Assembly (NCBI GenBank): GCA_902606525.1
Contig: CACLGW010000005.1
Coordinates: 1 to 55,571, forward strand
Direction: 5' to 3'
DNA length: 55,571 nt
Source of the DNA: an uncultured Bacteroidota bacterium
Lineage (GTDB): Bacteria > Bacteroidota > Bacteroidia > Flavobacteriales > Flavobacteriaceae
The position numbers and the translations under genes were made by a program. A model generated the notes under the pieces. That model did no database searches. It was not told the origin of the DNA and was given only the letters and a program-made list of their open reading frames with translations. Position 1 is the stretch's first letter. Every line of letters begins with the position of its first letter. Positions 3,106 to 39,350 of the stretch are shown one piece after another.

Positions 3106-3321
3106 ATGGCAAAACAAGAAGCAATAGAACAAGAGGGTACTATTATAGAGGCATTGTCCAATGCAATGTTTCGTGTAGAATTAGAAAACGGTCATGTTGT
3201 GACTGCTCATATCTCAGGAAAAATGCGTTTGCATTACATTAAACTATTGCCAGGTGATAAGGTCAAATTAGAAATGAGCCCTTATGATCTATCGAAAGCT
3301 AGAATAACATTTAGATTTTAA
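3106..3321 (+). CDS. infA: Translation initiation factor IF-1
   Basis: 71 aa, [41 protein letters not shown]. Confidence 0.97.
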
Positions 3322-3338
3322 AATATTCAACAATTGGT

Positions 3339-3455
3339 ATGAAAGTGAGAGCATCATTAAAAAAACGAAGTGCAGATTGTAAAATCGTTAGACGGAAAGG
3401 GCGTCTGTACGTTATAAATAAAAAGAACCCTAGATTTAAACAAAGACAAGGTTAA
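3339..3455 (+). CDS. rpmJ: 50S ribosomal protein L36, Cys-poor (zinc-independent type); not in supplied ORF track
   Basis: ATG 3339 to TAA 3453-3455, 38 aa [38 protein letters not shown]; between infA and rpsM. Confidence 0.96.
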
Positions 3456-3457
3456 TT

Positions 3458-3832
3458 ATGGCTAGAATATCAGGAGTAGACATTCCAAAGCAAAAAAGAG
3501 GAGTCGTTTCTTTAACTTATATTTTCGGTATTGGCAGAAGTCGAGCACAATCTATTTTGATATCAGCAAAAGTAGATGAAAGTAAAAAAGTTCAAGACTG
3601 GACAGATGAAGAAACATCTAGAATTCGAGAAGCCGTTTCTTCCTTCAAGATTGAAGGTGAGCTGCGTTCAGAGGTGCAATTAAATATAAAGCGTTTAATG
3701 GATATAGGAAGTTATCGAGGTATTCGACACAGAACAGGCCTTCCGTTACGCGGACAACGAACAAAAAACAATTCGCGTACTAGAAAGGGAAAACGTAAAA
3801 CTGTAGCAAATAAAAAGAAAGTAACTAAATAG
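3458..3832 (+). CDS. rpsM: 30S ribosomal protein S13
   Basis: 124 aa, S13 motifs incl. [28 protein letters not shown]. Confidence 0.97.
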
Positions 3833-4314: not shown

Positions 4315-4920
4315 ATGGCAAGATATACTGGTCCAAAAACAAAAATTGCTCGTAAATTTGGCGAGCCAATCTTTGGAGACGATAAATCCTTTGAAAAAAG
4401 AAATTATCCTCCAGGACAACATGGAAATGCAAAGCGAAGAGGGAAGAAATCGGAATATGCAATTCAATTAATGGAAAAGCAAAAGGCGAAGTTTACTTAT
4501 GGTATTTTAGAGCGCCAATTTCGAAACCTTTTTGAAAAAGCAAGTAGGAGTAAAGGTGTAACCGGTGAGGTTTTGTTGCAATTGTGTGAATCAAGACTAG
4601 ACAACATTGTTTATCGTTTTGGTTTATCAACCTCTAGAAGAGGCGCTAGACAATTGGTGTCACACCGACATATAACTGTAAATAATTCTATAGTAAATAT
4701 ACCCTCATACCAAGTAAAAGTGGGAGACGTTGTAGGGGTTAGAGAAAAATCTAAGTCTTTAAACATAATTGTAGAAGCAAAAGAAAAGGATTCATCGATA
4801 TATGAGTGGCTGAGTTGGAATAAAGACCAGCTTCAGGGAACATATGTAAGTTTACCTGAGCGAATACAAATTCCCGAAAATATTAAAGAACAACTAATAG
4901 TCGAACTATATTCTAAATAA
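4315..4920 (+). CDS. rpsD: 30S ribosomal protein S4
   Basis: 201 aa, [21 protein letters not shown]… S4 domain. Confidence 0.97.
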
Positions 4921-12668: not shown

Positions 12669-13388
12669 TTATTTGGAGTCGACGGCTAATTGATATACAA
12701 CTAAACCGAATCCAATCTTATTAATGGCGTCACCTACGTTATATATTACATCCATCTGGAGTCCACCGAATATTCCGCTGTACCATCCTTCAGTTCCTGC
12801 CATGTATCCGATTGGATAAATAGCCCATCCTATTAATACAAACTTGCAAAGTGTTTTATGAGCTGATTGAACAGCTCCACCTGCAGCGGCTGCCAATTTT
12901 GAAGCACCACCCATCCAGATTTCATATACGATGTAAAAATAAGCAATACCGGATACAAGACCCCAAATTTGGGCTTGACTTGTATAAACAGCTTCTCCAA
13001 AGTAACCAGTAACTAACATTACAATAGAGGCAAAAATCATTTTCCACATTAATTGTTTTGTTGCACCGGCTGCTTTAAGGATTAAATAAAACTCAACACA
13101 CATTAAAGGTACAGTTAGTATCCAATCTACATATCTAAAAAATGTAGGAGAGGTCATATTAGTTGCCCAATAGTCACGCATGTACCAATAGTGAACTGCT
13201 GCAATGAACGTAATTAGACCTGACACCAAAATAGATGTTTTCCATTTGTTGTCAAATGAGTTCATTTGAAGAAAGAAGAACGCTGATGCTGCCATCATCG
13301 CCATACATCCTATGAAGAATGTGAATCCCACATAGTCGTCTGTGGCCATCGCTGGCACTACAGTCATTAAACTTAGAATTTTTTCCAT
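12669..13388 (-). CDS. Proteorhodopsin, predicted green-absorbing H+ pump (DTE motif)
   Basis: 239 aa, 7-TM rhodopsin; RYVDWILTVPLMCVEFY gives D88/T92/E99 (= D97/T101/E108), M96 at tuning position 105, Schiff-base K224 in GDAINKIGFG, H66. Confidence 0.97.
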   Translation of the reverse strand: MEKILSLMTVVPAMATDDYVGFTFFIGCMAMMAASAFFFLQMNSFDNKWKTSILVSGLITFIAAVHYWYMRDYWATNMTSPTFFRYVDWILTVPLMCVEFYLILKAAGATKQLMWKMIFASIVMLVTGYFGEAVYTSQAQIWGLVSGIAYFYIVYEIWMGGASKLAAAAGGAVQSAHKTLCKFVLIGWAIYPIGYMAGTEGWYSGIFGGLQMDVIYNVGDAINKIGFGLVVYQLAVDSK

Positions 13389-13471
13389 GATTTAATCAAT
13401 TATTTATTTTTGTTTAGATAAATTTAGAAAAAATTAAACTTATTTGCTTTGTTTTTAATAATTATTTTCTC

Positions 13472-14383
13472 TTGAAAGCATTAACTTCTTCATTTACAAC
13501 AACTAAAAAATTTATATTTTATTTATTTATTACATTAATTTGTATTGTTTTCACGCTTTTTTGTTCTGAAAACCTTCAGAATATTGCTGCAAGCTTAGGG
13601 ATTTTGTCCTTTGGTATCCTTCATGGAGCTAACGATATTAAAATTTTATCCAGTAAAAGAATGAAAATTAACTCTCTTTTCGGCGTGTCTTTATTGCTAA
13701 TTTATTTAGTTGTGGTTTTTTTAGGTATATTATTATTCTACTTTATACCAGGTATAGCTTTAATAAGTTTTATTGCTGTTAGTTGTTATCACTTTGGAGA
13801 ACAACATTGGGAAGATAAATTGAATGATATTAAAAGGCCGTTATTGTTTTATATTACTTATGGATCTTTAATTTTTTTAATGCTTTTCTCTTTTCATTAT
13901 TCTCAAGTTGAGGAAATTATTTTTCAAATTTCGTCTGTTCATATACCGTATCAATTTTTTTTTGTTTCATTAATAATTATCGGTAATATTTTTTTAGTAT
14001 GTATGTTTATTCAATTAAAAAAGATCAAACATATATTATTAGAAACATTGCTCTTAGGGATATTAGGTCTCCTTTTCTATACAGCATCTTTGCTTTTTGC
14101 ATTTGGGCTTTACTTTGTAATATGGCATAGTTTACCTTCATTGAAGTCTCAAATCAAATATCTTTACAGTGAAAAAGAGGATTCACCATATTTCAAATAT
14201 TTTAAATCTGCCTTTTTATATTGGATCATGGCCTTAACTGGATTAATGGCAATATATTTTTTTGGTAGCCTTCCAAAAGATCAATACTTATCAGTTTTCT
14301 TCTCATTTTTGGCTGCTATTACATTTCCACATGTTATCGTAATGGGTTTAATGTTTCATTCACCTAAATTGAATAGCAGTTAA
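13472..14383 (+). CDS. blh: Beta-carotene 15,15'-dioxygenase, Brp/Blh family (retinal formation); TTG start
   Basis: 303 aa polytopic protein with conserved His motifs (GILHGANDI, CYHFGEQHWED, WHSLPS, FPHVIVMGLM); divergent from proteorhodopsin. Confidence 0.92.
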   Translation: MKALTSSFTTTKKFIFYLFITLICIVFTLFCSENLQNIAASLGILSFGILHGANDIKILSSKRMKINSLFGVSLLLIYLVVVFLGILLFYFIPGIALISFIAVSCYHFGEQHWEDKLNDIKRPLLFYITYGSLIFLMLFSFHYSQVEEIIFQISSVHIPYQFFFVSLIIIGNIFLVCMFIQLKKIKHILLETLLLGILGLLFYTASLLFAFGLYFVIWHSLPSLKSQIKYLYSEKEDSPYFKYFKSAFLYWIMALTGLMAIYFFGSLPKDQYLSVFFSFLAAITFPHVIVMGLMFHSPKLNSS

Positions 14384-22154: not shown

Positions 22155-25100
22155 TTGAAAAACATTAGGTTTAACTTATTATCAAAGCTTTTTGCTATGG
22201 TTGCTTTATTTATAACAACCTTTGCATTCAGCCAAACACCAAGTTTAACCTTATCTACAAGCCTTGGAGTTGATAATATCACATGTGCTAATACGGCTTT
22301 TACCTTAACTGTTTCCGATTCTACTTTAAGCCTCAGTACAACGTATACTCTTAGTTACGGATCATTTGTTTCCTCCCAAAATACTAACACTGGGAGTGCT
22401 ACTTTTTCTCTTGCTGGAGTAGCTACGGAAACAACTATTACTGTAAATGCTCAAAATCCTAATGGAAATGTTGCAAGTACAACAATAATTTTTGTGCCTA
22501 GATTAGCAACATCAGGAACTATAAGCACAACTGCCCCTTTATTAATTTGTTATGGAGGCATAATTACGGATGCCATTTATGGGGATGGAACAATAGGCAG
22601 TTCATCAGCAACCTTAGCCGCAGGAAGCTCTGCAGCTTCAATACAATATCAATGGCAGTTTAAAACTAATACCGATCCTTGGGAAAATATCCCTGGAGCA
22701 AGTACAGCTAGCACATTGTCAACAAGCACACTATCAACTTTTCAAATTTATGAAAACATCACCATAAGAAGAGTCTCTTATGCTGTTAGTGGAACTGTTT
22801 CTTGTTCGGTTGGAATGACCTATCCTGAGATTTCTGCTGTAGTATCTAATGTTTCCCCACCTGTTATTACATCTGATACTTCTGATTATAATGTTTGTAG
22901 TGATCAAAGCTATAATTTCTCAACAGCTGCTGTAGGTGGAATAACACATTATTGGTATTTAGATGTTACTCAAGTAGCCACAGGTGATTCTTACTATTTA
23001 CCAGCAGGAACAATTTCTACCGACAAAACTTTAGGTCTAATAGCATTTAACGGTACTTGTAGTTCTACTTTAGTAACAAAAACTTTAAAGGTTGCCCCCT
23101 TGCCATCTTTAACTATAACAACTGGTTTAACAGGAGATGTATTGTGTCCTTCAGGTAGTTTTACCCTCAGAGTTCAAGATACTCAGAGTTCCAACACGAC
23201 ATATACCCTTACTTATGGTTCACAACAAGCGATTAAAAACAGTGCTACAGGTATTGCTACTTTTGCAATAAGCGGTATTACCTCTGAGACTATTTTTAGT
23301 GTTGAGGCAGAGTCAGCCGCGGGTTGTTCGGTAACTGCAACAAAGACTGTATTAATGCCGATAATGAATAATGGCGGCACTGTTACTACAACATTTGCGA
23401 CAAGTCTATGTTATGGTGATATAATCAATGATGCTATTTATGGGGATGGAACAATAGGCAGTTCATCAGCTACTTTATCGGCTGATAGTTCAGCGGCTAC
23501 GATAAGTTATACCTGGGAGATAAGCACTACAAGTAATCCAGCATGGACACCTATAGGGGGAGCAATGGGAGCCAATTTAGCTACGAACACTTTGGGTAAT
23601 ATTTACCAGAACACCTCAATACGAAGGGCAGCTTACGCTAGAATAGGAACTGTGAATTGTAATGCTGTTTATTCGAATGAAATAGCCTTCACAGTAGATC
23701 CAGTTATAGATCCAACCATTGACGGTTCCTTATCAATTTGTTCAGACCTTCCCAACCAGTATGATGTAGGTTCAAGCCAACCCGGCTACACCTACCACTG
23801 GTTTATAGGAGGTGCCCACAAAGGTACTGGTCCTAGTTATACTGTTGCAGCTGGATCGATATCGGCTAATACTACCATAGGTTTACAGGGTGTTACTTCA
23901 GGGGGTTGTTCTACAACACTAGTTACAAGTACCATAACATTAAGCACTCCATTAACATTGTCTTTAAATACTGATTTAACAGGAGATATATTGTGTCCTT
24001 CAGAGAGTTTTACCCTTACAGTATCAGATAGTCAGAGTTCCAACACGACATATACCCTTACTTATGGTTCACAACAAGCGATTAAAAACAGTACTACAGG
24101 TATTGCTACTTTTACAATAAGCGGTATTACCTCTGAGACTATCTTTAGTGTTGAGGCAGAGCCAGCCGCGGGTTGTTCGGCAACTGCAACAAAGACTGTA
24201 TTAATGCCGATAATGAATAATGGCGGCACTGTTACTACAACATTTGCGACAAGTCTATGTTATGGTGATATAATCAATGATGCTATTTATGGGGATGGAA
24301 CAATAGGCAGTTCATCAGCTACTTTATCGGCTGATAGTTCAGCGGCTACGATAAGTTATACCTGGGAGATAAGCACTACAAGTAATCCAGCATGGACACC
24401 TATAGGGGGAGCAATGGGAGCCAATTTAGCTACGAACACTTTGGGTAATATTTACCAGAACACCTCAATACGAAGGGCAGCTTACGCTAGAATAGGAACT
24501 GTGAATTGTAATGCTGTTTATTCGAATGAAATAGCCTTCACAGTAGATCCAGTTATAGATCCAACCATTGACGGTTCCTTATCAATTTGTTCAGACCTTC
24601 CCAACCAGTATGATGTAGGTTCAAGCCAACCCGGCTACACCTACCACTGGTTTATAGGAGGTGCCCACAAAGGTACTGGTCCTAGTTATACTGTTGCAGC
24701 TGGATCGATATCGGTTAATACTACCATAGGTTTACAGGGTGTTACTTCAGGGGGTTGTTCTACAACATTAGTTACAAGTACCTTAATGTTAAGCACTCCA
24801 TTAACATTGTCTTTAAATACTGATTTAACAGGAGATGTATTGTGTCCTTCAGAGAGTTTTACCCTTACAGTATCAGATAGTCAGAGTTCCAACACGACAT
24901 ATACCCTTACTTATGGTTCAAGTCAAGATATTGTAAACAGTGCTACAGGTATTGCTACTTTTACAATAAGCGGTATTACTTCAGGTACTACCTTTAGAGT
25001 TGAGGCAGAGCCAGCCGCGGGTTGTTCGGTAACTGCAACAAAGACTGTATCAGTACCCCAATTATCGTCAGTTGGTTCAATAACAACAGCATTCTCAACG

Positions 25101-28100
25101 AGTCTATGTTATGGTGATACAATCAATGATGCTATATATGGAGACGGTACGGCTTCTTCAGCAAGTGCTACGCTTGTAACCGGAAGTCCAGGAATTATAT
25201 CCTATCAATGGCAGGTTAAAACAGGAAGTAACCCAACATGGAGAGATATAGCGGGGGCAACGGGAGCTAACTTAGCTACGAATACTTTAGGAGCACTATA
25301 CGAAAGCGCAAATATTAGACGTGTACCTTATTCTAAAATAGGAACCGTAACTTGTACTATGGACACTCCACCTGCCTATCCTGAAATCATATTTACTGTT
25401 CAAAATTTAGATGGAGGAACAATTTCTCCAGCAACAGTTTATTCCTGTGATGTAAGTGGAGCAACTTATACTATATCAGTTTCTGATAATAGTTTTGGAA
25501 GTTATACATATCAATGGCAATCTTCAACTACAAATACTTCTTCAGCATCGTTTAGTAATATCTCTGGAGAAATAAGAGCATCAATTATTGTGTCAACTAA
25601 TACAACACAGACAACTTATTACAGAAGAATTGTATCCTCGGCGTCAGCTGGAAGCACATGTACACCAGAATATTCTAATGTATTTGAACTAGTACTAAAT
25701 AGTGTTAATCCTGGAACTATTGATGATGTGAGTGGATTGTATTGTGAGGGTTCAGTGCCTCCCGTTTTGGGTCTATCTAGCACAGTAACATCAACTTTTC
25801 CAATTACATATCAATGGTATAAAGCAGAGACAGACGATTTAAGTGCAGTTACTAGTGCCTCATGGAGTGCTATCCCAGGCGAAAACAATAATTCTTATGT
25901 TACCCCAGCACTAAGCTCAACTTCACGTTATATTCTTTATAAAAGAGGTGTTATAGAAGATAGAGGTGCTGCAGCTTCATGTGAGAAATATACAAATGAA
26001 GTAACTTTTGAAATTTTTAATACTATCGACATCGGTTATGTTGAGCCGGCTACTGGAACCCCGGATTTCCCATATTGTGTGGGTGATCAGTTCCCGAATT
26101 TAAGTTTAATTTCCTATGATCCTAATATTTTAGATAATGCTAATTATGCAACATTAACGGCCACTTGGCAGTATTCTACTGATGGAGTAACCTGGCAAAC
26201 TGCTAATGAAATTGTGGATGATCTTAATGAAACGACTTTCAATTTAAGAAATGTTGATTCTAATGCTCCTGCTGATACTTTTTATTTGTCTAATGATTTA
26301 TATTTTAGAGTTAAAGTTGAAAATATTAATACTGGTATTGCCACTTACACATTAACAGGTTATTCCGTTAAGATGATTGAAAATTCAGCTACTCATGATG
26401 TAGGTGATAACTATAAAATAACTATAGGAGCTTCGTCAGTTTCAGTTACAGTTACCGATGTAAATAGCACCACAGCTTTAATTGGAACAGCACTTGCAAA
26501 TAGTATTGATTCTGATATTGCAAATTATAGTGCTTCATATCTAAGTGGTAGTAACATCATTCAAATTGAAGATATAGCATCAAATAATTTTAATATTTCT
26601 GCATCTACTTCTTACACCTTAAATAAAACTCTAGAACTAAATGTGTTTCAAGCTTTCAATAATAATGCAAACGCTAACTGTGTCTACTTTACTTCTGCAT
26701 ACAAAATAGATGTAGTAGATAGACCAACAATTAGTGTTGATGGTGGATCTTCATCTCAAGAGGTCTGTGATGGAACAGCTATAAGCCCAATCCCAATAAC
26801 ATGGACTGGAAGCTCTTCAATTTTAATTATTGATCTTGATGCTGGATTATCAGTAAATGTTGGAACTGGAGCAGAGACAATAGTTGCTGGAAATAAATTA
26901 ATTACAGGCACAAATTCAATTACAATTACTGGGACACCAAATAGCGGCCATACATTTGATATTCGCTTAAATAGTTATTGTAGAGATGATTCTGAATTAA
27001 ACGTTCAATATCAAATAACCAAAACTACTGATCCACCTGCAATTTCAAATTTATTTAGAGATTTTTCTTTTAATTGGGCGGGAACAATTTATTATGATGG
27101 TAGCGGACAAGGATATAATAATACCGTATGTGTTGATTCGTCTGTTTCACCCTCAAATACAGCAAGTTTGACTACAAGTGACATATTTGCATGTTTTGAT
27201 TCCACATCAACAGCATATGGTGGGTACCTTGATTGGGAATTTATTGATAAAGACGGAGTAAATTTATCGGTTTCACCAACATTATCTAATACAGCTTTAG
27301 ATGACATTAATACTTCAATTGAGACTGGTTCAAGGATTACCTGGAATCCTTCCTTCCTTGCTACACCAACAGTTTCAAATGGTGCATGGATTACAGTTAG
27401 GGTTCGAACATCCTCAACATGTAGTGCAACTGTATTTTCAAATTTCTTTGAAAAAGATGTATGGCTTGTGAAGACAAATACACTATCACAAACTAATGGC
27501 TCTCCTGATTTACCAACATTAACAAAACCAACAGCATTACAAGTTACTCATTCTTGCGGTGCAGGAACTCATTATACGAGAGAAATACCCACCTGCGAAG
27601 TACAATCAGTTGCTGCCGTTAATACAACCTTTACACAATTTTTTAGTTCCGCAATTACACCCACCACTAATGATTTCGGATCATTAGAATGGGAATTAAC
27701 AGATCCAAATGCGGGATCTATTAATGAATATGGAGTAGTCGTATGGACTCCTGGATTTTATGGAAATGTAAAAGTTAGAGTTAGACCTGTATCTTGTTTT
27801 AATGGAAATGTATCTAGTAGCGATTGGGTTGAATCTGATATTATAAGCATAAGCCCAGTAAACGAATTGATTCCAAATATTACAAGAACAAATCTACCAA
27901 CTTGTCCAATTCCTACAACAGGAAGTTTATCAACCACTTTAGAATCTGATATTCCCGTAGATTGGTATATAAAAACAACAACTACTGGTGTTGCAACTAA
28001 TTCATATATCAAAGCAGGTACAGTCACATTTACTGGATCACAATATTTAGCTCAAGATTATTACCAAATTGAGGCAAATACAGGAACTGGTGGGTTATTA

Positions 28101-31100
28101 ATTCCTTGGGCAAATTCTGCTTCTGGAACTATATATTTAAAAGCGGTTCCACAGGGATGCAGTGGAACCGAACCTGAATGGGTTAGAGATCTTTCCATTA
28201 GAATTCCTGATAATCCTAGAATGCAAATTGCATCAAATAATATGGGAACGATAAGTCCTGAAATTTGTGAAAACGAAACAGATTTTGTTGATATTATTTA
28301 TGATGTCATTGGAAGATCGGTTACTGGAATTACAGTTTCTGAAACCACAAACCAAGTGTCAGGGTCAATTTTAAATGCAGTTATTGTTCCCAAAAGTCAA
28401 ACAGCAACAATAACTTTTAACGAAACAACTAATACTCTAATTCCAAGATTTATTTTAATCAATATTAATGATAATGATTATAAAATTCAGGCAGGTGTAG
28501 ATGAAACTAGTGATAGTGTTGCTCAGAAACTTGCTAATTTGATAGATGCTGATTCTAATTTATCAGCTAATTATAATAGCACAACAAATAGCTTAGTAAT
28601 TACTGGAAGTGCAGGTTATTACTTTACCATCTATACATCGAATAGTAGTAGTGCTATAACATTATCTGTTAATTTTGATGTAGATAGTCAAGTATACTCA
28701 CAAGTTGAAGTTAGAGGTGTTACCGGGTATATTCCACCTGGAATTTATCAGTTTAGAGTAGATTTAACTCTAGACGCTGGATGTGAACAAGATGGACAGG
28801 TATTAATTAATCTTACTGTAAATGACGACGCAGAATTTACACTTACTTCAGCAGGAACAACTCCAAACCAGGACGTTTGTTATAATGGGGCAATTGATAA
28901 TATTGTATGGGCTATTTCAGGTCTTGATAATCTATCCACAGTTAATGTGAGTGGAGCATTACCTAGCAATATTATAAGCACTCAAACAACTACTACCTTT
29001 ACACTTAGTAATAATGGGACTAATACTGATTATTGGAACACAAGAGTTTTTCCGTATACTATATTAACGGAGGGTGATTTATGTGATGAGGCAACTCAAA
29101 GTGGAGCAATTACCGTTTATCCAAAAGACTATTTAAGAAGAGATCCTGCAGATCTTACAACAAGTCAAGTTATTTGTGAGGGGTCTGCTATGACTCCAAT
29201 TCAATATGAATTTTGGGGTGTAAATACAATCTCAGCTACAATTCAAGATCTAAACGGACTTGGTTTAAGTACATCAGTTACCACAACTACTCAAATTGCT
29301 TCAATCACTTTTGATTCTCTTTTAGGAGTTACATCAACTGATACAACTGAGTTTTACTCAATTTATATTAATGACGAAATTTATACCGTAACTGCTTCAA
29401 CAACAACAACTTATACAGCTACCAATGTTCTTTCACTACTTAGTTCTGCTATATCAAGTACAATTGTTACCTCAACTTTAAATGGTACAGATTTAATTAT
29501 TACTGGTTTAACATCTGGAACAACATTTGCTCTTGAAGGAAGAGAATCTAATGGTTCAAACTTTAGCTTTAACGAACAAATTATGGTAAGGCCTCCAAGA
29601 ATATTAACTATTACAGGAACACCAACCTTATCATCTTTAACTACCCTCACAACAAGGGGAACCTATAGCTTTAATGTTGTGACAGTTGGAGGACAATATT
29701 GTTCTGGGACTGCATCTTCGTCGTTATTAACATATACATTATTTATTGATCCCGTTGCTCGACTAAGCATTGCATCTCCTAAGCAAAATTTAGAAGTTTG
29801 TGATGGATTTTCTTCAGAATTTATAAGGTTTCAAACAACTGGAGGCGCTCCAGCAATAGAAATTAGTGCAACGGCATCACCCTCAGCTCAGTACACATTT
29901 TACCCTTCTTTTGGAGCAGGGACAACTATAGCAAGCTCTACATACGATTGGTACCCTAATATCAAAACAAGTGTAACTACTATTACCACATTTACGTATA
30001 CCGCAACTGCAACTGCAAATTCGTGTGGTGCTAGCCCACTCAGTTCTCTTACAGTAACAGGAACTGTAATTGTTTATCCTCATTATATAAACAAAGAAGT
30101 ATTATCAGGAGATCTAAGTCAATCTATATATGATGGCCAGGATATATCTCCAATTGTTTTTAATTATAGTGGAAATTACTCTGATGCATCAATTGTCTGG
30201 CAAAATGGTGATAATTTAGGTCTTTCATTAATCGCTTCAGGAACAAGCCTTTCACTGTCAGGCACGGCTACTCCAACATCAGCGACTACTACTACTACCT
30301 CTCACCCGTATATAATAACTGTTGAAAGCAAAACTAATCTTTCACCGAATTGTTCACCTCTAACCGTAACTGGTACTATAACTTTAGATCCTCCTTATAA
30401 ATTAACATTAACATCAAGCCCAACTACACTTGATCAAAATATCAGTAGTGGGGACCCTATGACGCCAGTTACAATTGACCTTGAAAATGGTTCATATTCA
30501 TATACAATTGAATGGAGAGACAATATGGGAAATACACTATCTTCAGCTCCACTTGATTTATCAATTACACCATTTCCAGATTTTGCGAATGTATCTAGTT
30601 TGACTCTTTCTGGAACTCTTTCATTACCTTCAGGAACAGTGACTCCTTCAGCTTTATATTATAGAATCTCTACAGTCAGTAGCACAACGGATGCTGGAGT
30701 CTCATTTATTGATGGTAGAATTTTGGGTATTCCTGAAGAGCAAATTATAACCTCCGTAGCCTCAACTACAACAATTTGTCAGGCTGACGATTTAAATCTT
30801 GAGTTTACTTTTACGGGTATTCAAAATTTAAGCTTTACTGCTTCTCCTTCGTTACCCTCAGGATTAACAGTGGTAACACTATACACAACCACCCCTACAT
30901 TTGAAATAGATGTTGTTTCTAGCTCTACTGAAATAAATGAAGTTTTTCAAATTGAAATTTTACAGGAAGATGGTTCTTCACAAAGCTTTAGCTATGTTAC
31001 AACTGCATCAACAACTGCATCATCTACTATAGCTGCAAACTTAGAAAGTGCTATTAACTATGGTGGAATAAATACTTCTGTCAGTGGAAGTAAAATTACA

Positions 31101-34100
31101 CTTGAGGCTGCTAATAATGATTTTGTTTTTAGAGTCAAAGAGAACATACCTTATGTAAGCGACAGTTTCCTTTCAGTATTCAATTCTAAACTCAGGATTA
31201 ATGAGACTATTCCAGTGACTGGATCTTTAACTGTAACAGGTACTATTCTTAACCCATTATCTTCAACAGTCAGTTACGGTTTAACTATAGTAACTCCTGG
31301 TATGTCTGGATCAACAGCTACGAAAACAATTGATCTAGTTGTTAATCCAAATCACTTTATTTCAACTATTACTAGTTCTACTTTAAATCAAACATTATGT
31401 GATAATAATTCAATTGGGCAAGTTGTATTTGAGCTCACAGGTGGAGCGACAAACTATAATATTGTTTGGTCTAATGGAACACCATCAGGGATATCTTTAA
31501 CTTCATCCAATACGGGATCTTCAGTTTCATTAACTATTTCAGGAACATTACAAACTGGCGTGACAACCACTACAACATATCCATATGTAATTTCAACAAC
31601 TGGAAACTCTTGTAGTCCCAGTGCAAGTATTTCAGGAACTATTGTTGTAGAGCCTAATCACTATCTTACTTTAAATGGATCTTCTGGTGCAGCAAATCAG
31701 ACTGTGTGTGATCTATCAGCTATTAATCCTTTGATATTTGATGTATCTGGTGGTGCAACTGGTATTGATGTTACATGGACCCCTTCGAATCCAGGCTATA
31801 CAATTGTTCAAAGCTCTTCCTCATCAACCTCATTTATTATCTCTGATACATTAAATACGGGAATCACGACTGATACAATATACACCTATTTAGTAACAAC
31901 TAATGGCAATAGTTGTGATACACTTACAGCTAGTTTGACAGGACAAATTACGGTTCTTGCTCAACTTCAAATCCAAGTAGACACACCTTTATCTCAAGAT
32001 CAAACTGGAAGTGAAGCCCATTGTGACGGTGATACAATTGATGATATTTCATTTTCATTTACTTCTGGGACTCCTACAAATTTAATAATAACATGGTATG
32101 ATTCTTCTGGGAATATTATTGGAACTCCAGGACCAACCTTGGATTCTGCTAATAATATAATTACAGGTACGATTAATAGTTCTTCTGTAACTCTCACTAC
32201 CTTTAATTACACCTTAACTGCAATCGACAACAATAATCCAACATGTGTTTTTACAGATAGCTTTAGTGGTAGTATTCAAGTTGCTCCAAGTCCAGTGATT
32301 GACCAAAATTATATTTTAAATAACGATGTTATTCATGTTAGTTGCAATGGAGGAAGTGATGGTTCAATAATCATTCCTATAACACCAACATCAGAGTTTG
32401 AAAAAAGAATTATTGGAGGTCAAATTGCAGGAGCACAAATAGATCAGATTTCACTTGTTACAAGTAACACACTTAACCCAGGAGACGTACTTTCGATTGC
32501 AATTAATAGCACCACGATTTCGGTTACTGTTGCAGTTGGAAGAACAGCTACTTCGACTATTATGACTGATTTTATTGAACAAATTAATCTTAAATTATCG
32601 AATATAACGGCTTCGTTAGTTAGTTCTGGAACAGATAGCTTAATTAATCTAACAGCTGATGTCGCAGGGACTGCTTTTACTTCAACTTCACCTACATTAT
32701 CTTCATCTGTTACAGGAACCGTAATAGTCTCTACAATTGTTGCAAATCAATCCTTAAATTACTCTTATGCTTGGAAATATAATGGTGGTGCATATAGTAA
32801 TGATTTGAGTATAGAAAATCTTTCTGCAGGAACATATGAATTGACTGTAAGCGTTAATGGATGCTCTTCAACCTCTGCAACTTTTACAATAGAAGAGCCA
32901 ACAACAACAATAGGTACTGCGTCCTTTACTTGTGATAGAAAAATATCACTTCCTGTCTCAACTTATTTCACTCCAACTCAAATGGCAATTGCAAGTCCAA
33001 AAATTAAAGGGACCTTGTATAAACTAGCAGTTGACGGCACTTACACATCTACAGTTACAACTCAGGAGTTTGTAGCCTCTACTGCGACTTCAACATTTAA
33101 TTTCGACTTTAATGGGGTTACACTAGATGAGGGAGAAAAGTATAAAGTCGATATTTATGATCTATTCTGTAATAATTTTAATTCTATAATTGTAGGACCT
33201 GTTGATAAAGCACTTGCAATTGATGAAAGTCAAATCACAACTGTTGATGAAGAATGTATAGGTGATGGAGGCTCAATTCTTATTGCAAATGGCGCTATAA
33301 GTGGAGGATCTGGTTCTTACTTATATAGTTGGACAAATATAACTGACAATACAACTTATTTCACAAGAGATGTTGTTGGAGCCAGTGATGGAAGTTACAC
33401 ACTAACAATTACTGACCAACTAAGAAACTGTACTTATACTATTGCAACCAATGTTATAGTTCTTCCGGCTGGACCAACAATTGCAGCAAGTTGGGCAACT
33501 GCTACTAATATTACAGTAAATCAATGTGCTGATGGAAGATTAGGTCAATTAGAAATCGTTCCAAGTGGAGGAGGGGGAACGTACTCTTACGAATGGGAAT
33601 TTACACCAGCAACTGCTAGTGGAACTATTTCTAGCACGATCCAAATTTCAAATAACAATGGTAAACTGATACCAGGCAATGCATCCGAAATACCATCAAG
33701 TATGAGTACAACCGGAGATTATAAAGTATATATTTATGATGGGAATATATCAGATGGTTGCCCAGCACTTGAAGAAACAATTTCAATTACTGGACCAACT
33801 CCAGTGTCATTGACATCTAGCTTAACTTTCTCAAATATACTTTGCTCGGGAGACAATAATGGAACTATAGAATTCACTGTAACGGGAGGTATAGCACCCT
33901 ATTTTTATTCGCTTAACGGGGGTACACCATCTACTCCTCTTAGCAGTGGAAATAATACTCATTTAGAAACAGGATTGGCTCCAGGGCAATATAATGTTGT
34001 AATTAAAGACTCATCGCCTGATAGCTGTACTCCGGTAACAGTTGGACAAACTGTTACTATTACTGAGCCAACTGGAGGTCCCCTCGAGTTAACAGAGGGT

Positions 34101-37100
34101 ACAATAACTGAAATTCCATGTAATAATGGAGGAAAAGGATCATTTGAAGTTAACATATCAGGAGGATCAAACCAAAAAGTTAGCTCTGGGACAGTTTCGA
34201 GCGGATCTGCAAGCTTTACTACCAATAATATATATCAGGTTAGAGTTGTTGGGCCTGCAGGGAACTTTACTTTAAACACCTCTATAGATAGCTCTTCTGA
34301 AACTAGTATATTAATTGAAAATATTCCTGCTGCTGGTGATTATGAAGTAACCGTTACAGATGGCAGCGGATTTTGTTCGCAAAACATTACAATCACTATA
34401 CCTTTAGCGGCAGCTGAAAATCTTGCTGCGTCTGCAGAGGCATTTGATGGTGGAGGATGTAATTCTGTTTCTGATGAAGGAGGGTATATTCAAATATCAC
34501 AATTTTCAAAAGGAGATGGTGAAATATCCGGTTATCCACTTTGGCAAAGATTAACATCAAGTGAATTTGATAAATTTAATATTACATTAGCAGGAACTCC
34601 ATCTGGTATTATTGATCTTACTTCAATTGGTGTAATAATAGGAGGTGTTGACACAGTCAATGCATCAGGAGCTAGTTCATCAGGTACTCTTACTGAAATT
34701 AGAGCTCAGCTAGCTGATAATATTAATTTACTTCCAAATTATACAGCAACGCTGAACGGATCTGTAATTTCTGTTGTTGGACAAATTATTGACAGTGTTA
34801 GTGAGATTGGAGCTTCAAGCTCAACGATAAATCTTTCCGTTTCATCAATATCTAAGATAAATCAGTCTTCGTGGTCAAATATACCTGGGGTTGAGGGTCA
34901 AGAAAAAATTGAAAATCTCCAGTCTGGAACCTATAGGGGAATAATAAAAGATGGTTCAGGTTGTGGATCAGCACTTGTTCAAAATGTTGAAGGAGGAACT
35001 ACATTCAGAATAAATGATCCAACATCACTTGAGATAAAAGATTTTAATTTAGTTAAAGCTATTTGTAATAATCCTCAGTCAAGTGTAGAATTCCGGCTTT
35101 CGAATGGAGCCTTTATCTTATCTCCAAATGAAAATACGTATGACATTACTCTAAATTCAATAGCTTTAGTAAATAATGGACCTGTTGGAACAGCTTACAC
35201 AATAAATCCTTCAAAAAATATTTACCAAATTGATAATTTATCAGTAAATAATTATGAACTAACTGTTTTTGATAAAACTACTTCTTGTACTACCAATGTA
35301 AGTTTCGAAGTAGAAGAGCCTATTTCTATAAATTATTCTGGAGAAACAAGCTTTATTATAGATCCTTGCTATGACAATTATCAAGAAGATTTCTTTGACC
35401 CATTATTAATTGAAGGAGGAACACCATTTATAAATCTTGACGGAGATTCGTATTACTCCTTAACTTGGAGGTATTATCCACTCGATACATCATTAGGCGT
35501 AACTACAATAAATTCTTTAAGTAACTCGGTAAACTTTGCTCCAGGACCTGGCAGATATGAATTATTTGTTAAAGATTCTAATGGTTGTAAAATTGTAGAT
35601 TCCAATGGCACAGAAGTTCCAATTGAATTCTCATTCTCAAAAGAATTAGGTACACTAGCTATAAATGGAACTGGAGGATCAAGTGGAGATGAATTATCTC
35701 AGGCTGTAAGTTGTCAAATTAATGCAGAGGATGGACAAATTAATATTGAAGTAGTAAGTGGAGATCCAAATAACTCAGAAATAGGACCTTTTAATCTTGA
35801 ATGGCATGTTCAAGCTCCAAATGATGTGGCTTTTGAACAAAAATTATTAATAGAAGGGACACTTGCTGGTGATAGTCTTGAGGTTTATACAATAAGGTTG
35901 AATGAAATTCCATTTAGTTATACAACGCAAGTGCAAAATGAACCAAAGCAGTCTGTAACTAGTGAACTGATTAAAATAATAAATGATTCACCTCAATTTA
36001 TTGCATCTGAAAACCCTTCTAATCCATTTGAAATAATTTTAACAACAGAATCCTTTGCCTCTCTAGAACTTGAAATAGTTTCACTTAGTACCAAACTTAA
36101 TCTTATAAAAACGACTTCTAATAATGCCTCATGGATTCCACTAGATGGAACTAATGGATATCCTGACTATACGGGCTTCTTAGATCTAAATAATTTAGCT
36201 GAAGGGCTTTACCGTTATACAATAACCTCTGCAAGTGTTGCGATTTGTGCAAATAATACTGAACCAAATAGTGTCCAAGGAACAATTGTGGTTGAAAATG
36301 ATAACATATTAGAAATTAGAGAGGGTCCAGTAATTGACGAATACTTATGTAATGGTCAACCTGGAACTATTTTCATTGATGTCTTTGATGGTGATACAGG
36401 ACCATTAACTTTTAGATACAATGGTTCTCCAGTTACATTTGAAATTGTAGGTACAAACCAGTACATAATTAATATAGATAACCCAGTTGAGACAGCTTCA
36501 CTTGAAATTTATAACTCTGCAAATTGTGGTATTTCAAGAGAAATCAATATTGGTAACGGGACTCCTCTTTTCGATTTTACTTCGACTAACTTCCTTCAAT
36601 CTGGATCATTTTTAGCTAGAGAAGATATTACCTTTTCAGATATTTCAGAAAACGAATATGATTCATTTGAATTTATTTTTGGAGATGGCACTCAGACTGA
36701 TTTATTGGAAAGGAATAATCCTGAGCCAATAATTCATGAATATGCTATATCTGGAACTTATTATGTTACATTAAGAATATACAATGATCTAGGATGTGTT
36801 GAAGAATTAACAAAAACAATAAAAATAGGTAAGGGCTATAGTCTTCTGGTGCCGAACGTTTTTTCGCCAAATGGAGATATTTGGAATAATACTTTCCGCC
36901 CTGTCTTTAACGGATTTAGCGATATTGTTCTGAGAATTTATGATGCTCAAGGAGGTCTACTCTATGAAGAGACTGGGGCAGAAGGTTCAGATCCTAATAT
37001 TGTTGGATTATCTCTAAGGGGTTGGGAAGGTGAAACAAATCTTCCTTCATCTCCATATTTTGTTTATACTATTACTGCGACGACAATTGACGATGAACCA

Positions 37101-37136
37101 GTATTTAGAGATGGAACTTTTATTTTATTGCAATAG
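22155..37136 (+). CDS. Giant secreted adhesin-like protein (4993 aa) with N-terminal tandem repeats, PKD/Ig-like domains, SprB-type repeats, PKD domain and gliding motility-associated (type B T9SS) C-terminal domain
   Basis: Single uninterrupted ORF; signal peptide MKNIRFNLLSKLFAMVALFITTFAFSQ; SprB-like units (CNGGSDGSIIIPIT…LSAGTYELTVSVNGCSS; CSGDNNGTIEFTVTGGIAPYFYSLNGG…); C-terminus VPNVFSPNGDIWNNTFRPVFNGFSDIVLRIYDAQGGLLYEE…GWEGE…PYFVYTITA…FRDGTFILLQ. Confidence 0.93.
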   Translation: MKNIRFNLLSKLFAMVALFITTFAFSQTPSLTLSTSLGVDNITCANTAFTLTVSDSTLSLSTTYTLSYGSFVSSQNTNTGSATFSLAGVATETTITVNAQNPNGNVASTTIIFVPRLATSGTISTTAPLLICYGGIITDAIYGDGTIGSSSATLAAGSSAASIQYQWQFKTNTDPWENIPGASTASTLSTSTLSTFQIYENITIRRVSYAVSGTVSCSVGMTYPEISAVVSNVSPPVITSDTSDYNVCSDQSYNFSTAAVGGITHYWYLDVTQVATGDSYYLPAGTISTDKTLGLIAFNGTCSSTLVTKTLKVAPLPSLTITTGLTGDVLCPSGSFTLRVQDTQSSNTTYTLTYGSQQAIKNSATGIATFAISGITSETIFSVEAESAAGCSVTATKTVLMPIMNNGGTVTTTFATSLCYGDIINDAIYGDGTIGSSSATLSADSSAATISYTWEISTTSNPAWTPIGGAMGANLATNTLGNIYQNTSIRRAAYARIGTVNCNAVYSNEIAFTVDPVIDPTIDGSLSICSDLPNQYDVGSSQPGYTYHWFIGGAHKGTGPSYTVAAGSISANTTIGLQGVTSGGCSTTLVTSTITLSTPLTLSLNTDLTGDILCPSESFTLTVSDSQSSNTTYTLTYGSQQAIKNSTTGIATFTISGITSETIFSVEAEPAAGCSATATKTVLMPIMNNGGTVTTTFATSLCYGDIINDAIYGDGTIGSSSATLSADSSAATISYTWEISTTSNPAWTPIGGAMGANLATNTLGNIYQNTSIRRAAYARIGTVNCNAVYSNEIAFTVDPVIDPTIDGSLSICSDLPNQYDVGSSQPGYTYHWFIGGAHKGTGPSYTVAAGSISVNTTIGLQGVTSGGCSTTLVTSTLMLSTPLTLSLNTDLTGDVLCPSESFTLTVSDSQSSNTTYTLTYGSSQDIVNSATGIATFTISGITSGTTFRVEAEPAAGCSVTATKTVSVPQLSSVGSITTAFSTSLCYGDTINDAIYGDGTASSASATLVTGSPGIISYQWQVKTGSNPTWRDIAGATGANLATNTLGALYESANIRRVPYSKIGTVTCTMDTPPAYPEIIFTVQNLDGGTISPATVYSCDVSGATYTISVSDNSFGSYTYQWQSSTTNTSSASFSNISGEIRASIIVSTNTTQTTYYRRIVSSASAGSTCTPEYSNVFELVLNSVNPGTIDDVSGLYCEGSVPPVLGLSSTVTSTFPITYQWYKAETDDLSAVTSASWSAIPGENNNSYVTPALSSTSRYILYKRGVIEDRGAAASCEKYTNEVTFEIFNTIDIGYVEPATGTPDFPYCVGDQFPNLSLISYDPNILDNANYATLTATWQYSTDGVTWQTANEIVDDLNETTFNLRNVDSNAPADTFYLSNDLYFRVKVENINTGIATYTLTGYSVKMIENSATHDVGDNYKITIGASSVSVTVTDVNSTTALIGTALANSIDSDIANYSASYLSGSNIIQIEDIASNNFNISASTSYTLNKTLELNVFQAFNNNANANCVYFTSAYKIDVVDRPTISVDGGSSSQEVCDGTAISPIPITWTGSSSILIIDLDAGLSVNVGTGAETIVAGNKLITGTNSITITGTPNSGHTFDIRLNSYCRDDSELNVQYQITKTTDPPAISNLFRDFSFNWAGTIYYDGSGQGYNNTVCVDSSVSPSNTASLTTSDIFACFDSTSTAYGGYLDWEFIDKDGVNLSVSPTLSNTALDDINTSIETGSRITWNPSFLATPTVSNGAWITVRVRTSSTCSATVFSNFFEKDVWLVKTNTLSQTNGSPDLPTLTKPTALQVTHSCGAGTHYTREIPTCEVQSVAAVNTTFTQFFSSAITPTTNDFGSLEWELTDPNAGSINEYGVVVWTPGFYGNVKVRVRPVSCFNGNVSSSDWVESDIISISPVNELIPNITRTNLPTCPIPTTGSLSTTLESDIPVDWYIKTTTTGVATNSYIKAGTVTFTGSQYLAQDYYQIEANTGTGGLLIPWANSASGTIYLKAVPQGCSGTEPEWVRDLSIRIPDNPRMQIASNNMGTISPEICENETDFVDIIYDVIGRSVTGITVSETTNQVSGSILNAVIVPKSQTATITFNETTNTLIPRFILININDNDYKIQAGVDETSDSVAQKLANLIDADSNLSANYNSTTNSLVITGSAGYYFTIYTSNSSSAITLSVNFDVDSQVYSQVEVRGVTGYIPPGIYQFRVDLTLDAGCEQDGQVLINLTVNDDAEFTLTSAGTTPNQDVCYNGAIDNIVWAISGLDNLSTVNVSGALPSNIISTQTTTTFTLSNNGTNTDYWNTRVFPYTILTEGDLCDEATQSGAITVYPKDYLRRDPADLTTSQVICEGSAMTPIQYEFWGVNTISATIQDLNGLGLSTSVTTTTQIASITFDSLLGVTSTDTTEFYSIYINDEIYTVTASTTTTYTATNVLSLLSSAISSTIVTSTLNGTDLIITGLTSGTTFALEGRESNGSNFSFNEQIMVRPPRILTITGTPTLSSLTTLTTRGTYSFNVVTVGGQYCSGTASSSLLTYTLFIDPVARLSIASPKQNLEVCDGFSSEFIRFQTTGGAPAIEISATASPSAQYTFYPSFGAGTTIASSTYDWYPNIKTSVTTITTFTYTATATANSCGASPLSSLTVTGTVIVYPHYINKEVLSGDLSQSIYDGQDISPIVFNYSGNYSDASIVWQNGDNLGLSLIASGTSLSLSGTATPTSATTTTTSHPYIITVESKTNLSPNCSPLTVTGTITLDPPYKLTLTSSPTTLDQNISSGDPMTPVTIDLENGSYSYTIEWRDNMGNTLSSAPLDLSITPFPDFANVSSLTLSGTLSLPSGTVTPSALYYRISTVSSTTDAGVSFIDGRILGIPEEQIITSVASTTTICQADDLNLEFTFTGIQNLSFTASPSLPSGLTVVTLYTTTPTFEIDVVSSSTEINEVFQIEILQEDGSSQSFSYVTTASTTASSTIAANLESAINYGGINTSVSGSKITLEAANNDFVFRVKENIPYVSDSFLSVFNSKLRINETIPVTGSLTVTGTILNPLSSTVSYGLTIVTPGMSGSTATKTIDLVVNPNHFISTITSSTLNQTLCDNNSIGQVVFELTGGATNYNIVWSNGTPSGISLTSSNTGSSVSLTISGTLQTGVTTTTTYPYVISTTGNSCSPSASISGTIVVEPNHYLTLNGSSGAANQTVCDLSAINPLIFDVSGGATGIDVTWTPSNPGYTIVQSSSSSTSFIISDTLNTGITTDTIYTYLVTTNGNSCDTLTASLTGQITVLAQLQIQVDTPLSQDQTGSEAHCDGDTIDDISFSFTSGTPTNLIITWYDSSGNIIGTPGPTLDSANNIITGTINSSSVTLTTFNYTLTAIDNNNPTCVFTDSFSGSIQVAPSPVIDQNYILNNDVIHVSCNGGSDGSIIIPITPTSEFEKRIIGGQIAGAQIDQISLVTSNTLNPGDVLSIAINSTTISVTVAVGRTATSTIMTDFIEQINLKLSNITASLVSSGTDSLINLTADVAGTAFTSTSPTLSSSVTGTVIVSTIVANQSLNYSYAWKYNGGAYSNDLSIENLSAGTYELTVSVNGCSSTSATFTIEEPTTTIGTASFTCDRKISLPVSTYFTPTQMAIASPKIKGTLYKLAVDGTYTSTVTTQEFVASTATSTFNFDFNGVTLDEGEKYKVDIYDLFCNNFNSIIVGPVDKALAIDESQITTVDEECIGDGGSILIANGAISGGSGSYLYSWTNITDNTTYFTRDVVGASDGSYTLTITDQLRNCTYTIATNVIVLPAGPTIAASWATATNITVNQCADGRLGQLEIVPSGGGGTYSYEWEFTPATASGTISSTIQISNNNGKLIPGNASEIPSSMSTTGDYKVYIYDGNISDGCPALEETISITGPTPVSLTSSLTFSNILCSGDNNGTIEFTVTGGIAPYFYSLNGGTPSTPLSSGNNTHLETGLAPGQYNVVIKDSSPDSCTPVTVGQTVTITEPTGGPLELTEGTITEIPCNNGGKGSFEVNISGGSNQKVSSGTVSSGSASFTTNNIYQVRVVGPAGNFTLNTSIDSSSETSILIENIPAAGDYEVTVTDGSGFCSQNITITIPLAAAENLAASAEAFDGGGCNSVSDEGGYIQISQFSKGDGEISGYPLWQRLTSSEFDKFNITLAGTPSGIIDLTSIGVIIGGVDTVNASGASSSGTLTEIRAQLADNINLLPNYTATLNGSVISVVGQIIDSVSEIGASSSTINLSVSSISKINQSSWSNIPGVEGQEKIENLQSGTYRGIIKDGSGCGSALVQNVEGGTTFRINDPTSLEIKDFNLVKAICNNPQSSVEFRLSNGAFILSPNENTYDITLNSIALVNNGPVGTAYTINPSKNIYQIDNLSVNNYELTVFDKTTSCTTNVSFEVEEPISINYSGETSFIIDPCYDNYQEDFFDPLLIEGGTPFINLDGDSYYSLTWRYYPLDTSLGVTTINSLSNSVNFAPGPGRYELFVKDSNGCKIVDSNGTEVPIEFSFSKELGTLAINGTGGSSGDELSQAVSCQINAEDGQINIEVVSGDPNNSEIGPFNLEWHVQAPNDVAFEQKLLIEGTLAGDSLEVYTIRLNEIPFSYTTQVQNEPKQSVTSELIKIINDSPQFIASENPSNPFEIILTTESFASLELEIVSLSTKLNLIKTTSNNASWIPLDGTNGYPDYTGFLDLNNLAEGLYRYTITSASVAICANNTEPNSVQGTIVVENDNILEIREGPVIDEYLCNGQPGTIFIDVFDGDTGPLTFRYNGSPVTFEIVGTNQYIINIDNPVETASLEIYNSANCGISREINIGNGTPLFDFTSTNFLQSGSFLAREDITFSDISENEYDSFEFIFGDGTQTDLLERNNPEPIIHEYAISGTYYVTLRIYNDLGCVEELTKTIKIGKGYSLLVPNVFSPNGDIWNNTFRPVFNGFSDIVLRIYDAQGGLLYEETGAEGSDPNIVGLSLRGWEGETNLPSSPYFVYTITATTIDDEPVFRDGTFILLQ
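23131..23979 (+). repeat. 849-bp tandem repeat, copy 1 (283 aa)
   Basis: Period fixed by the recurring ACAGGAGAT(G/A)TATTGTGTCCTTCAG anchor (C of CAGGAGAT at 23131, 23980, 24829). Confidence 0.95.
23980..24828 (+). repeat. 849-bp tandem repeat, copy 2, near-identical to copy 1
   Basis: About 20 differences by eye, mostly near the unit edges; ~540 bp core appears identical. Confidence 0.95.
24829..25410 (+). repeat. Partial/diverged third copy of the 849-bp repeat
   Basis: First ~220 bp near-identical (to …GCAACAAAGACTGTA), then homologous but diverged; a diverged copy also precedes copy 1 at ~22240-23130. Confidence 0.85.
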
Positions 37137-38156
37137 ATGAGGAAACTAATTCAACTATACATGTTTATTTTTTTCATTTCTTTTACTGGATATGGACAAG
37201 AAGATATGATTATAAGTTATTCTAGGTTTATGCAGAAAGTTAATCCAAGTGCATTTGGTATCAATAATATAAATAAGACAGGTGTTCTCTACAATTCACA
37301 GGGATTAATAAATAATAATCGAATTGAAAGTCAATATTTTTTTGGTGCAATTTCCTTTGATGCAGATAATTTTAGTTTGGGCTTAGATGTATATTCTCTT
37401 ACTATGGATAACACAGGTCTTGTGAATACAAAACCAAGATTAAGCTATATTTATAAAATTCAATTTGATAATGAAGTTTATTTTCTACCTTCCATAACCC
37501 TTGGATTAGGAAGTTCAAAACTTGACACAGGAAAACTCATTTTTGAAGATCAGATTTCTTTAGTTTCAGGGTATTTACAAACAGAATCGCAAGATCCAAT
37601 TGTTGATCAAATCGCAAATTCAAATTATTTGGATCTAGGAGCCTCATTTATAGTTCATTCTTCAAACTATCTTTTTGGTGCGAGTATCCAACATTTAAAT
37701 CAACCAAACATTTCTTATAATATAGAGGATACCGACTACACTCTACCAATTAGATTTTCTGCCCAAGGAGCTTATGAATTTGATATAAATCCATATGATA
37801 GGTCAATAATGCCCAGATATTCTACTATTTATACATTTATGAATGTGTCAAAAATGGGAGATAATTATGATATTTTTCTTTCACAGGAAGCACAACTTGG
37901 TTCTTTTTCAATTGGTTTGAATCAGCAATTTAGAAAAACTAGCAATTTTGGTTTTACTAATATTGGCCTATCTGTTGCACTTGCTTATGAAAATTTTGAA
38001 TTTGGTACTCTTTATAATTTCCCTTTTAGAAATGCGACAAATACATCTGTATACTCCCCAAGTACCATTGAACTTTTTTTAACATTTGATTTTAGTCCTT
38101 ATTTGAGAAATAAAAGAGGAGACTATACAAGGCTAAGTATTGATAATTATTATTAA
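37137..38156 (+). CDS. PorP/SprF family type IX secretion-associated outer-membrane protein
   Basis: 339 aa; signal peptide, QEDMIISYSRFMQKVNPSAFGINNINKTGVLYNSQG… and beta-barrel pattern of PorP/SprF; abuts the giant gene (TAG|ATG). Confidence 0.88.
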   Translation: MRKLIQLYMFIFFISFTGYGQEDMIISYSRFMQKVNPSAFGINNINKTGVLYNSQGLINNNRIESQYFFGAISFDADNFSLGLDVYSLTMDNTGLVNTKPRLSYIYKIQFDNEVYFLPSITLGLGSSKLDTGKLIFEDQISLVSGYLQTESQDPIVDQIANSNYLDLGASFIVHSSNYLFGASIQHLNQPNISYNIEDTDYTLPIRFSAQGAYEFDINPYDRSIMPRYSTIYTFMNVSKMGDNYDIFLSQEAQLGSFSIGLNQQFRKTSNFGFTNIGLSVALAYENFEFGTLYNFPFRNATNTSVYSPSTIELFLTFDFSPYLRNKRGDYTRLSIDNYY

Positions 38157-39350
38157 ATGAATCTCAGAATCAGATCATACAATTCTTTTTTTTGTGGATT
38201 AATATCTTTGTTCCTATTTATAAAATGCTCTCCCGATTCCTCTTCAGTAGAATATTTTAGGTCTGAAAGAAATGGAGATTTCAAAGCCAGAATTGTTGTC
38301 GATTCAACTATGATCTATAGAAATAATCGAAATAATGGTCAATTAAGTGTTGATATTAAGTATAAAGCAGTACTCTTAGATTCTGATATTGATTCTATAG
38401 AATGGTTATTTCCAGACGGAAATCCAGAAAATGCAAAAGAAACCTTGAGTGCATCTATAAATTATTCTAACTATGGTACTTTCAACTCTAAACTGATACT
38501 TACAAAAGTAGATACAGTAAACCTGAATAATATTTACTCTTATAAAGATACTATTGAAATATCTAACCCTATTAGAATTGCTTATAAGGAAACCAATTGG
38601 AGTACATTTATTACTACTGACGATCCTAATTGGTTAGTACTCCCAAATAACCAAAACGTAATAATTCGAGAAAATCAAATTTTTGAAGACTCAGATCCTT
38701 TTGAAGCTTATGCATCCTTCAAAGGGTTCAATAATAAAAAATTAAAATTTTCAATTGATTATAAGCTTACTTATAAAAATCCATTAAACGATAATATTAC
38801 TCAAAACCCAAAAATAGATATCCTAGTAGATGACCTTAAAGCTTTTGGTGTTTCTGGGGTGTCAAATGATAAATATTTCACTCAAGAATTTTTCGTAGAC
38901 AATCTAAATGATTTTGATTTTAAAATAAAAAAATATCCTTCAATAACTTCATCGAACTGGCAACTATCACTTACTGCGTCAAGCACAACATTGACTGATA
39001 TTGATATAGCATTATATGATCTTCTAAACCAAAATAAAATAATAGGGTATTTAAACCTTGAACAAACATCAACTTCTACCGAAACTACTTCTTATCAAGC
39101 CCTTTTAAATACCACTATTAATGGAACTATATATAATTTTGGTATTAAAAATCAGAGTATAGTGCTAGACGGAGATCCCATAACAATAAAACCTGGAAGT
39201 AATTACAAAATTATTTTTAATACCGAGGATAGTTTACCAAAGTCTTTTGAGATTTTAAATGAAAATTTTACCACAATACCTGTAAACCTTGAAAATAACG
39301 AATATTTCATAGACGCTACGTTTAAAAAACTATTTATAAGTCTAGAGTAG
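38157..39350 (+). CDS. Putative PKD-domain lipoprotein
   Basis: 397 aa; LISLFLFIKCSPDSSS lipobox-like N-terminus; IEWLFPDGNPENAKETLSASINYSNYGTFNSKLIL resembles PKD; abuts the upstream ORF (TAA|ATG). Confidence 0.75.
   Translation: MNLRIRSYNSFFCGLISLFLFIKCSPDSSSVEYFRSERNGDFKARIVVDSTMIYRNNRNNGQLSVDIKYKAVLLDSDIDSIEWLFPDGNPENAKETLSASINYSNYGTFNSKLILTKVDTVNLNNIYSYKDTIEISNPIRIAYKETNWSTFITTDDPNWLVLPNNQNVIIRENQIFEDSDPFEAYASFKGFNNKKLKFSIDYKLTYKNPLNDNITQNPKIDILVDDLKAFGVSGVSNDKYFTQEFFVDNLNDFDFKIKKYPSITSSNWQLSLTASSTTLTDIDIALYDLLNQNKIIGYLNLEQTSTSTETTSYQALLNTTINGTIYNFGIKNQSIVLDGDPITIKPGSNYKIIFNTEDSLPKSFEILNENFTTIPVNLENNEYFIDATFKKLFISLE

Follow-up and report, generated by a model that had tools for sequence, protein, structure and literature searches.

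We analysed a stretch of 55,571 nucleotides from an uncultured Flavobacteriaceae bacterium (hereafter the window; NCBI GenBank assembly GCA_902606525.1, contig CACLGW010000005.1) and describe a module of about 100 amino acids (aa) that recurs seven times in the 4993-aa SprB-like giant adhesin encoded there. Profile comparisons confirm that the seven segments form a genuine, homologous family, and sequence evidence supports the nesting of five of them inside host domains of two types, PKD-like units and SprB repeats. Among domains of known structure, its closest relative is the extension domain of the contractile phage tail sheath, itself a nested, outward-facing insert. We propose that the modules probably serve as lateral binding or contact knobs on the adhesin.

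One module family with seven copies in the adhesin

Aligned alone, the seven copies have little in common: mean column identity is 36%, and when profiles are built within the window by leaving one copy out, the left-out copy scores -0.8 to 14.2 bits, which is mostly weak evidence. Because of this weak similarity, we base the homology of the copies on homologues in other genomes. A profile of the seven copies finds relatives in 12 genomes of the same genus besides the window's own (the same-genus relatives being genomes of about 2 Mb), and an iterated search of the giant proteins of the genus extends the set to about 65 modules with the consensus ...GEVYTITINGITFTYTVTESNTTSSTIAQELAALINADSQVTATVNSGSTITITSSTAGTVFTIS.

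A second profile, made only from proteins of other genera or other families, recovers all seven window copies at 10.3-36.5 bits. The same profile reaches at most 1.2 bits anywhere else in the 4993-aa protein, and the maximum in 200 local shuffles is 7.2 bits. There is a mild circularity in this result, as the outside-genus modules used for training had themselves been picked up initially by a profile containing the window's copies. For every window copy there is also a matching module at that site in orthologues from the genus, some full-length and some partial. A preliminary description of the window, made from its sequence, had proposed seven homologous segments; they are borne out, with profile starts within about 10 nucleotides and ends within about 30 nucleotides of the limits it gave. 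Searches of Pfam and NCBIfam give no module match above cut-off.

Of 100 other genera of Flavobacteriaceae, 8 have the module, and so has one distant family of the phylum. In a tree of 53 modules, which has few columns and unresolved deep forks, the modules group by site across genomes. Copies 2 and 6 each form one strongly supported branch; copies 1 and 7 do so too, with weaker support. Copy 5 falls together with a module of a second giant protein of the genus. Copy 3 joins loci L021 and L022 but is apart from the L023 module with which it aligns, and copy 4 intermingles with neighbouring sites. Since modules cluster by site across genomes, the sites are old.

Recent changes in copy number are local, and at least one is a joint duplication of host and module: in L021, about 508 aa holding both are duplicated. 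In L023 and L024, modules at neighbouring sites resemble each other. The preliminary description had suggested that the module spread by intragenic recombination. Given the grouping by site, a recent spread of this kind by the module alone is not supported, and the tree likewise gives no support to modules having moved independently from one site to another in recent times.

Other module-rich proteins were seen as well. Within the genus, L025-L029 represent another class of giant proteins, which differs in its C-terminal end and also carries about six modules. The richest protein observed is L061, with around 19 module matches in one 5175-aa frame. In the distant family (L071-L077), module-bearing open frames reach about 15,000 aa, and in L071 several modules lie close together without evident host domains.

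Host domains split by the modules

To describe the hosts we used profiles of the PKD-like unit, the SprB repeat and an Ig_7-like unit, all built without the window. The PKD-like profile matches module-bearing units in pieces, one on each side of the module. The best excisions remove aa 2094-2189 (copy 2), 2366-2465 (copy 3), 2905-3012 (copy 4), 3406-3525 (copy 5) and 4558-4653 (copy 7), limits that are near those from the module profile alone, and the joined flanks of these five copies cover most or all of the host profile. For example, the copy 5 repeat scores 65 bits against the SprB profile after excision, compared to 70 bits for a module-free repeat. Shuffling the weaker flank gives a score as high as the best excised one in 1 of 40 shuffles for copy 2 and in none of 40 for copies 3, 4, 5 and 7.

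These comparisons support the nesting of copies 2-4 in PKD-like hosts and of copies 5 and 7 in SprB repeats. The host of copy 6, judged by eye, is probably an SprB repeat, and that of copy 1 may be of a third, Ig_7-like type. One module family nested in at least two host types had been the central claim of the preliminary description, with PKD-like hosts for copies 2-4 and SprB hosts for copies 5-7. Excision upholds it for copies 2, 3, 4, 5 and 7; for copy 6 an SprB host is suggested by eye, and excision does no better than shuffled flanks. For copy 1 the preliminary description had named no host.

An AlphaFold model of aa 2862-3290 (10 rows; mean predicted local distance difference test (pLDDT) score 81.6) agrees with nesting for copy 4. 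Its host is modelled as strands A-D, followed by the module with connecting strands and then by strands E-G, compared to an unbroken A-G in the two module-free units beside it. Accepting strand letters assigned from strand order, this arrangement places copy 4 in the D-E loop. Foldseek of the PKD-unit model returns generic multi-immunoglobulin (Ig) and cadherin-type proteins only.

The insertion points differ between hosts. Besides the D-E loop of the PKD-like host, the module enters before the 'YSYAW' strand in copy 5 and comes after the 'FNLEW' strand ('LW/LEW') in copy 7 and likewise, by eye, in copy 6. Different hosts use different loops, and the earlier claim of corresponding mid-domain positions is not supported. 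The nested site of copy 5 is recognisable in other Flavobacteriaceae genera (L063, L064, L067, L068, L069 and L070, and more weakly in L061). As a separate observation, several modules of L061 apparently occupy Ig_7-like hosts, in the loop that follows 'YYRR', which would favour a third host type.

Relationship to the phage sheath extension domain

In the AlphaFold models of copies 4 and 7 the module folds as strand, hairpin, helix and hairpin, the order that had been read from the sequence; in the copy 7 model, pLDDT is mostly 77-93 over model residues 481-570. Foldseek, run with the copy 7 model, gives as its most reliable matches the contractile tail sheaths of phages phiTE, A-1(L), 7-7-1 and Milano at probability 0.99-1.00, with a root mean square deviation of about 3-5 over some 100 columns in the best matches. 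By E-value these are interleaved with generic Ig chains that fit the low-confidence remainder of the model. A comparison with predicted viral proteins yields Ig-like chains for the most part; a single tail sheath ranks 21st (probability 1.00).

Sequence profiles point in the same direction. Searched against PDB sequences, the family profile has its top matches among sheath or phage structural proteins (E 9e-4 to 7e-3), and the module consensus matches the PHROG tail sheath family phrog_165 (4.5e-6 and 1e-5). The program hhalign pairs the sheath extension domain, represented by seven sheath proteins from phage records, with the module profile from other genera (97.2% probability, E 3.9e-11, 71 columns), and the match is co-linear with letters in common (DTA..IA..L..AIN ... 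VTLTA). In gp20 of phage Milano, the sheath body domain is split by this external domain, which spans residues 91-203 (PMC10811340).

These comparisons relate the module to the extension domain carried by contractile phage tail sheaths, and both descent and convergence are possible as the source of this relation. The preliminary description had noted a loose likeness to phage-tail proteins, which now becomes specific. As the carrier is an SprB-like adhesin and the module does not lie within a sheath body domain, the module is a relative of that domain and not a sheath protein. Phage nozzle and tail tubular proteins (PF25675, phrog_457) match the consensus weakly and below cut-off (E 0.013-0.014), and a scan of viral contigs with the adhesin C-terminal alignment gives no match. 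Weak matches to Ca_tandemer and to the antifreeze adhesin MpAFP were not upheld by the family profile search.

Carrier, proposed role and known systems

Judged by its domains, the carrier is a giant surface adhesin of the SprB/SprF-like, type IX type B kind. SprB (PF13573) is above the Pfam cut-off in the 4993-aa protein and Ig_7, PKD_4 and CHU_C are just below it; no RTX family is among its Pfam and NCBIfam matches, and it has a CHU_C-like type IX end instead. The PorP/SprF-family product of the next gene is its presumed partner or shuttle. Type B substrates are established to leave the cell through the type IX machinery with the help of an SprF-like protein (PMC12618676); we expect the adhesin to be exported in this way, and we infer the route of anchoring. 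GldJ is over cut-off in the window's own genome, and of 23 other genomes of the genus that were sampled, 22 carry SprA. In a search with the C-terminus, the named loci matched are Flavobacteriaceae metagenome-assembled genomes and Bacteroidetes isolates, one of them Flavobacteria bacterium MS024-2A.

Table 1. Features of the adhesin gene and its neighbour (window coordinates; for excision, the number of flank shuffles as good as the excised host)
Feature	Position	Strand	Evidence or remark
Giant SprB-like adhesin, type B type IX (CHU_C-like) C-terminus	22155..37136	+	4993 aa, TTG start
Module copy 1, aa 1395-1499	26337..26651	+	module profile; host possibly Ig_7-like
Module copy 2, aa 2082-2173, PKD-like host	28398..28673	+	module profile; excision 1/40
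Module copy 3, aa 2380-2474, PKD-like host	29292..29576	+	module profile; excision 0/40
Module copy 4, aa 2912-3011, D-E loop of PKD-like host	30888..31187	+	module profile; excision 0/40; AlphaFold
Two module-free PKD-like units, aa 3077-3171 and 3181-3270	31383..31964	+	internal 'empty' controls
Module copy 5, aa 3428-3525, SprB repeat	32436..32729	+	module profile; excision 0/40; site common to other genera
Module copy 6, aa 4138-4231, probable SprB repeat	34566..34847	+	module profile; excision 13/40
Module copy 7, aa 4558-4654, SprB repeat	35826..36116	+	module profile; excision 0/40; high-confidence AlphaFold fold, Foldseek
CHU_C type IX secretion signal domain, aa 4898-4975	36846..37079	+	E 7e-5, just under Pfam cut-off
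PorP/SprF-family protein, next gene	37137..38156	+	PF11751 over cut-off; TIGR03519 under cut-off

Some further features of the locus were observed. The N-terminal part of the adhesin gene holds a tandem direct repeat (window 23113-25110), with three copies of a 300-nucleotide stretch at a spacing of 849 nucleotides, the later copies being 94% and 82% identical to the first. Directly 3' of the SprF-like gene lies a 397-aa protein (38157-39350) without Pfam or NCBIfam match; in several orthologous loci, similar open reading frames with the ending 'NEYYLDAsF' follow the adhesin gene and the SprF-like gene. In the same-genus genome G004 (contig C3), SprA is split into several frames, unlike in its relatives, by assembly error or as a pseudogene. 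Elsewhere in the window (12669-14383), a bacteriorhodopsin-like gene on the minus strand adjoins a beta-carotene 15,15'-dioxygenase gene on the plus strand, a light-harvesting retinal pair.

We propose the following role for the modules. The adhesin stalk consists of Ig/PKD-like and SprB beta domains, several of them split. At a split domain the chain begins the host fold, exits at a loop, folds a module of about 75-100 residues and returns to finish the host. Because the insert exits and re-enters the host at one loop, the modules would project sideways from the stalk. There they may contact ligands or neighbouring surface polymers, like the projected ligand-binding domains of RTX adhesins, while the host domains would bear tension. 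This role as lateral knobs is probable, and to us the most likely one, because the nearest described architecture is that of split-domain RTX adhesins with ligand-binding buds.

Several points weigh against it. Neither a ligand of the module nor conserved binding residues were found. Module divergence is only moderately above host divergence and so gives no pointer to a receptor tip under rapid evolution. Excision brings no gain over shuffled flanks for copy 1 or copy 6, whose excised scores are equalled in 16 of 40 and 13 of 40 shuffles. Closure of the copy 4 host sandwich was judged on the model from strand order and confidence only, and the AlphaFold model of the copy 7 region does not resolve the SprB host. 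Finally, SprA was not detected in the window genome, which is 57% complete.

The moderate divergence, together with the lack of recognised binding residues, makes a packing or spacing role a serious rival: the nested modules would space, stiffen or laterally pack adhesin filaments and bind no external ligand. The relationship to a structural phage domain and the persistence of the sites over long times fit such a role as well. Sheath extension domains lie on the tail exterior, and we know of no ligand for them. Nevertheless, several divergent copies per protein would suit varied contacts better than one packing role, and the projected domains of described split-domain adhesins are those that bind ligands (PMC12077191); both arguments are indirect. 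We consider a purely structural role possible, though less likely than that of a knob.

Convergence on a small simple fold would make the module an adhesin-specific domain of separate origin. The weak appearance of Top7 and protein G among the PDB-sequence profile matches is consistent with this, as are two negative results: tblastn of the module consensus against phage records gives no match, and the phrog_165 sheath, which could mark a prophage as local source, was not found in the 198 Bacteroidota genomes searched. However, the sheath or phage structural proteins are the best sequence matches and rank above Top7, and the hhalign match is co-linear, shares letters and has 97% probability. 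A separate origin appears unlikely to us. That modules and flanks are separate complete domains in linear order is very improbable: closely consecutive modules in some distant giant proteins (L071) and the behaviour of copies 1 and 6 would suit it, but the flanks of copies 2, 3, 4, 5 and 7 match complementary parts of the host profiles, joining them restores the host, and the copy 4 model argues for a split host.

Beyond the knob role, we tentatively suggest a wider account, which we hold with less than even confidence. The module would be a decoration domain common by descent to contractile phage tails and giant bacterial adhesins, would have entered several loops of unrelated stalk domains and would serve as a general lateral binding platform; its nested SprB form would be a conserved, undescribed architecture across Flavobacteriaceae. 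The findings as a whole would connect phage tail decoration with bacterial adhesion and widen the split-domain rule, so far one of type I RTX adhesins, to include those of type IX. They also give a recurring domain without annotation in giant Bacteroidota surface proteins a fold, a relative of known structure and a split-host architecture. The latter makes a search for binding sites practical, the module and not the stalk being the part to express and test.

The preliminary description regarded the nested arrangement as undescribed, which holds only in part. Split Ig-like domains with budding ligand-binding domains are described for type I-secreted RTX adhesins (PMC12077191, PMC10865825). For SprB-like type IX adhesins, open-access papers gave no account of the nested arrangement or of a sheath-type module.

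Three known systems are comparable. The SprB/SprF gliding-motility system of Flavobacterium johnsoniae shares the SprB repeats, the CHU_C-like end and a PorP/SprF gene directly downstream; nested modules are a difference from that system as described, the comparison being with its description and not with the F. johnsoniae SprB sequence. In AhLap of Aeromonas hydrophila, ligand-binding domains bud sideways from split domains of an RTX adhesin (PMC12077191), and FrhA of Vibrio cholerae is also a split-domain RTX adhesin (PMC10865825). Like these, the window protein has a giant Ig-like stalk with some domains split by a nested domain. AhLap and FrhA use type I secretion and carry a carbohydrate-binding module, an RTX roll or vWFA as inserts, whereas here an SprB/SprF-type protein carries a sheath-type insert in at least five nested copies. 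With the sheath extension domain (phrog_165; Milano gp20 residues 91-203, PMC10811340), the module shares a co-linear profile, the fold and the position as an outward-facing insert within another domain. Unlike the phage domain, the module is part of bacterial adhesins, its hosts are Ig/PKD-like and SprB domains instead of the sheath body domain, and one chain holds several copies.

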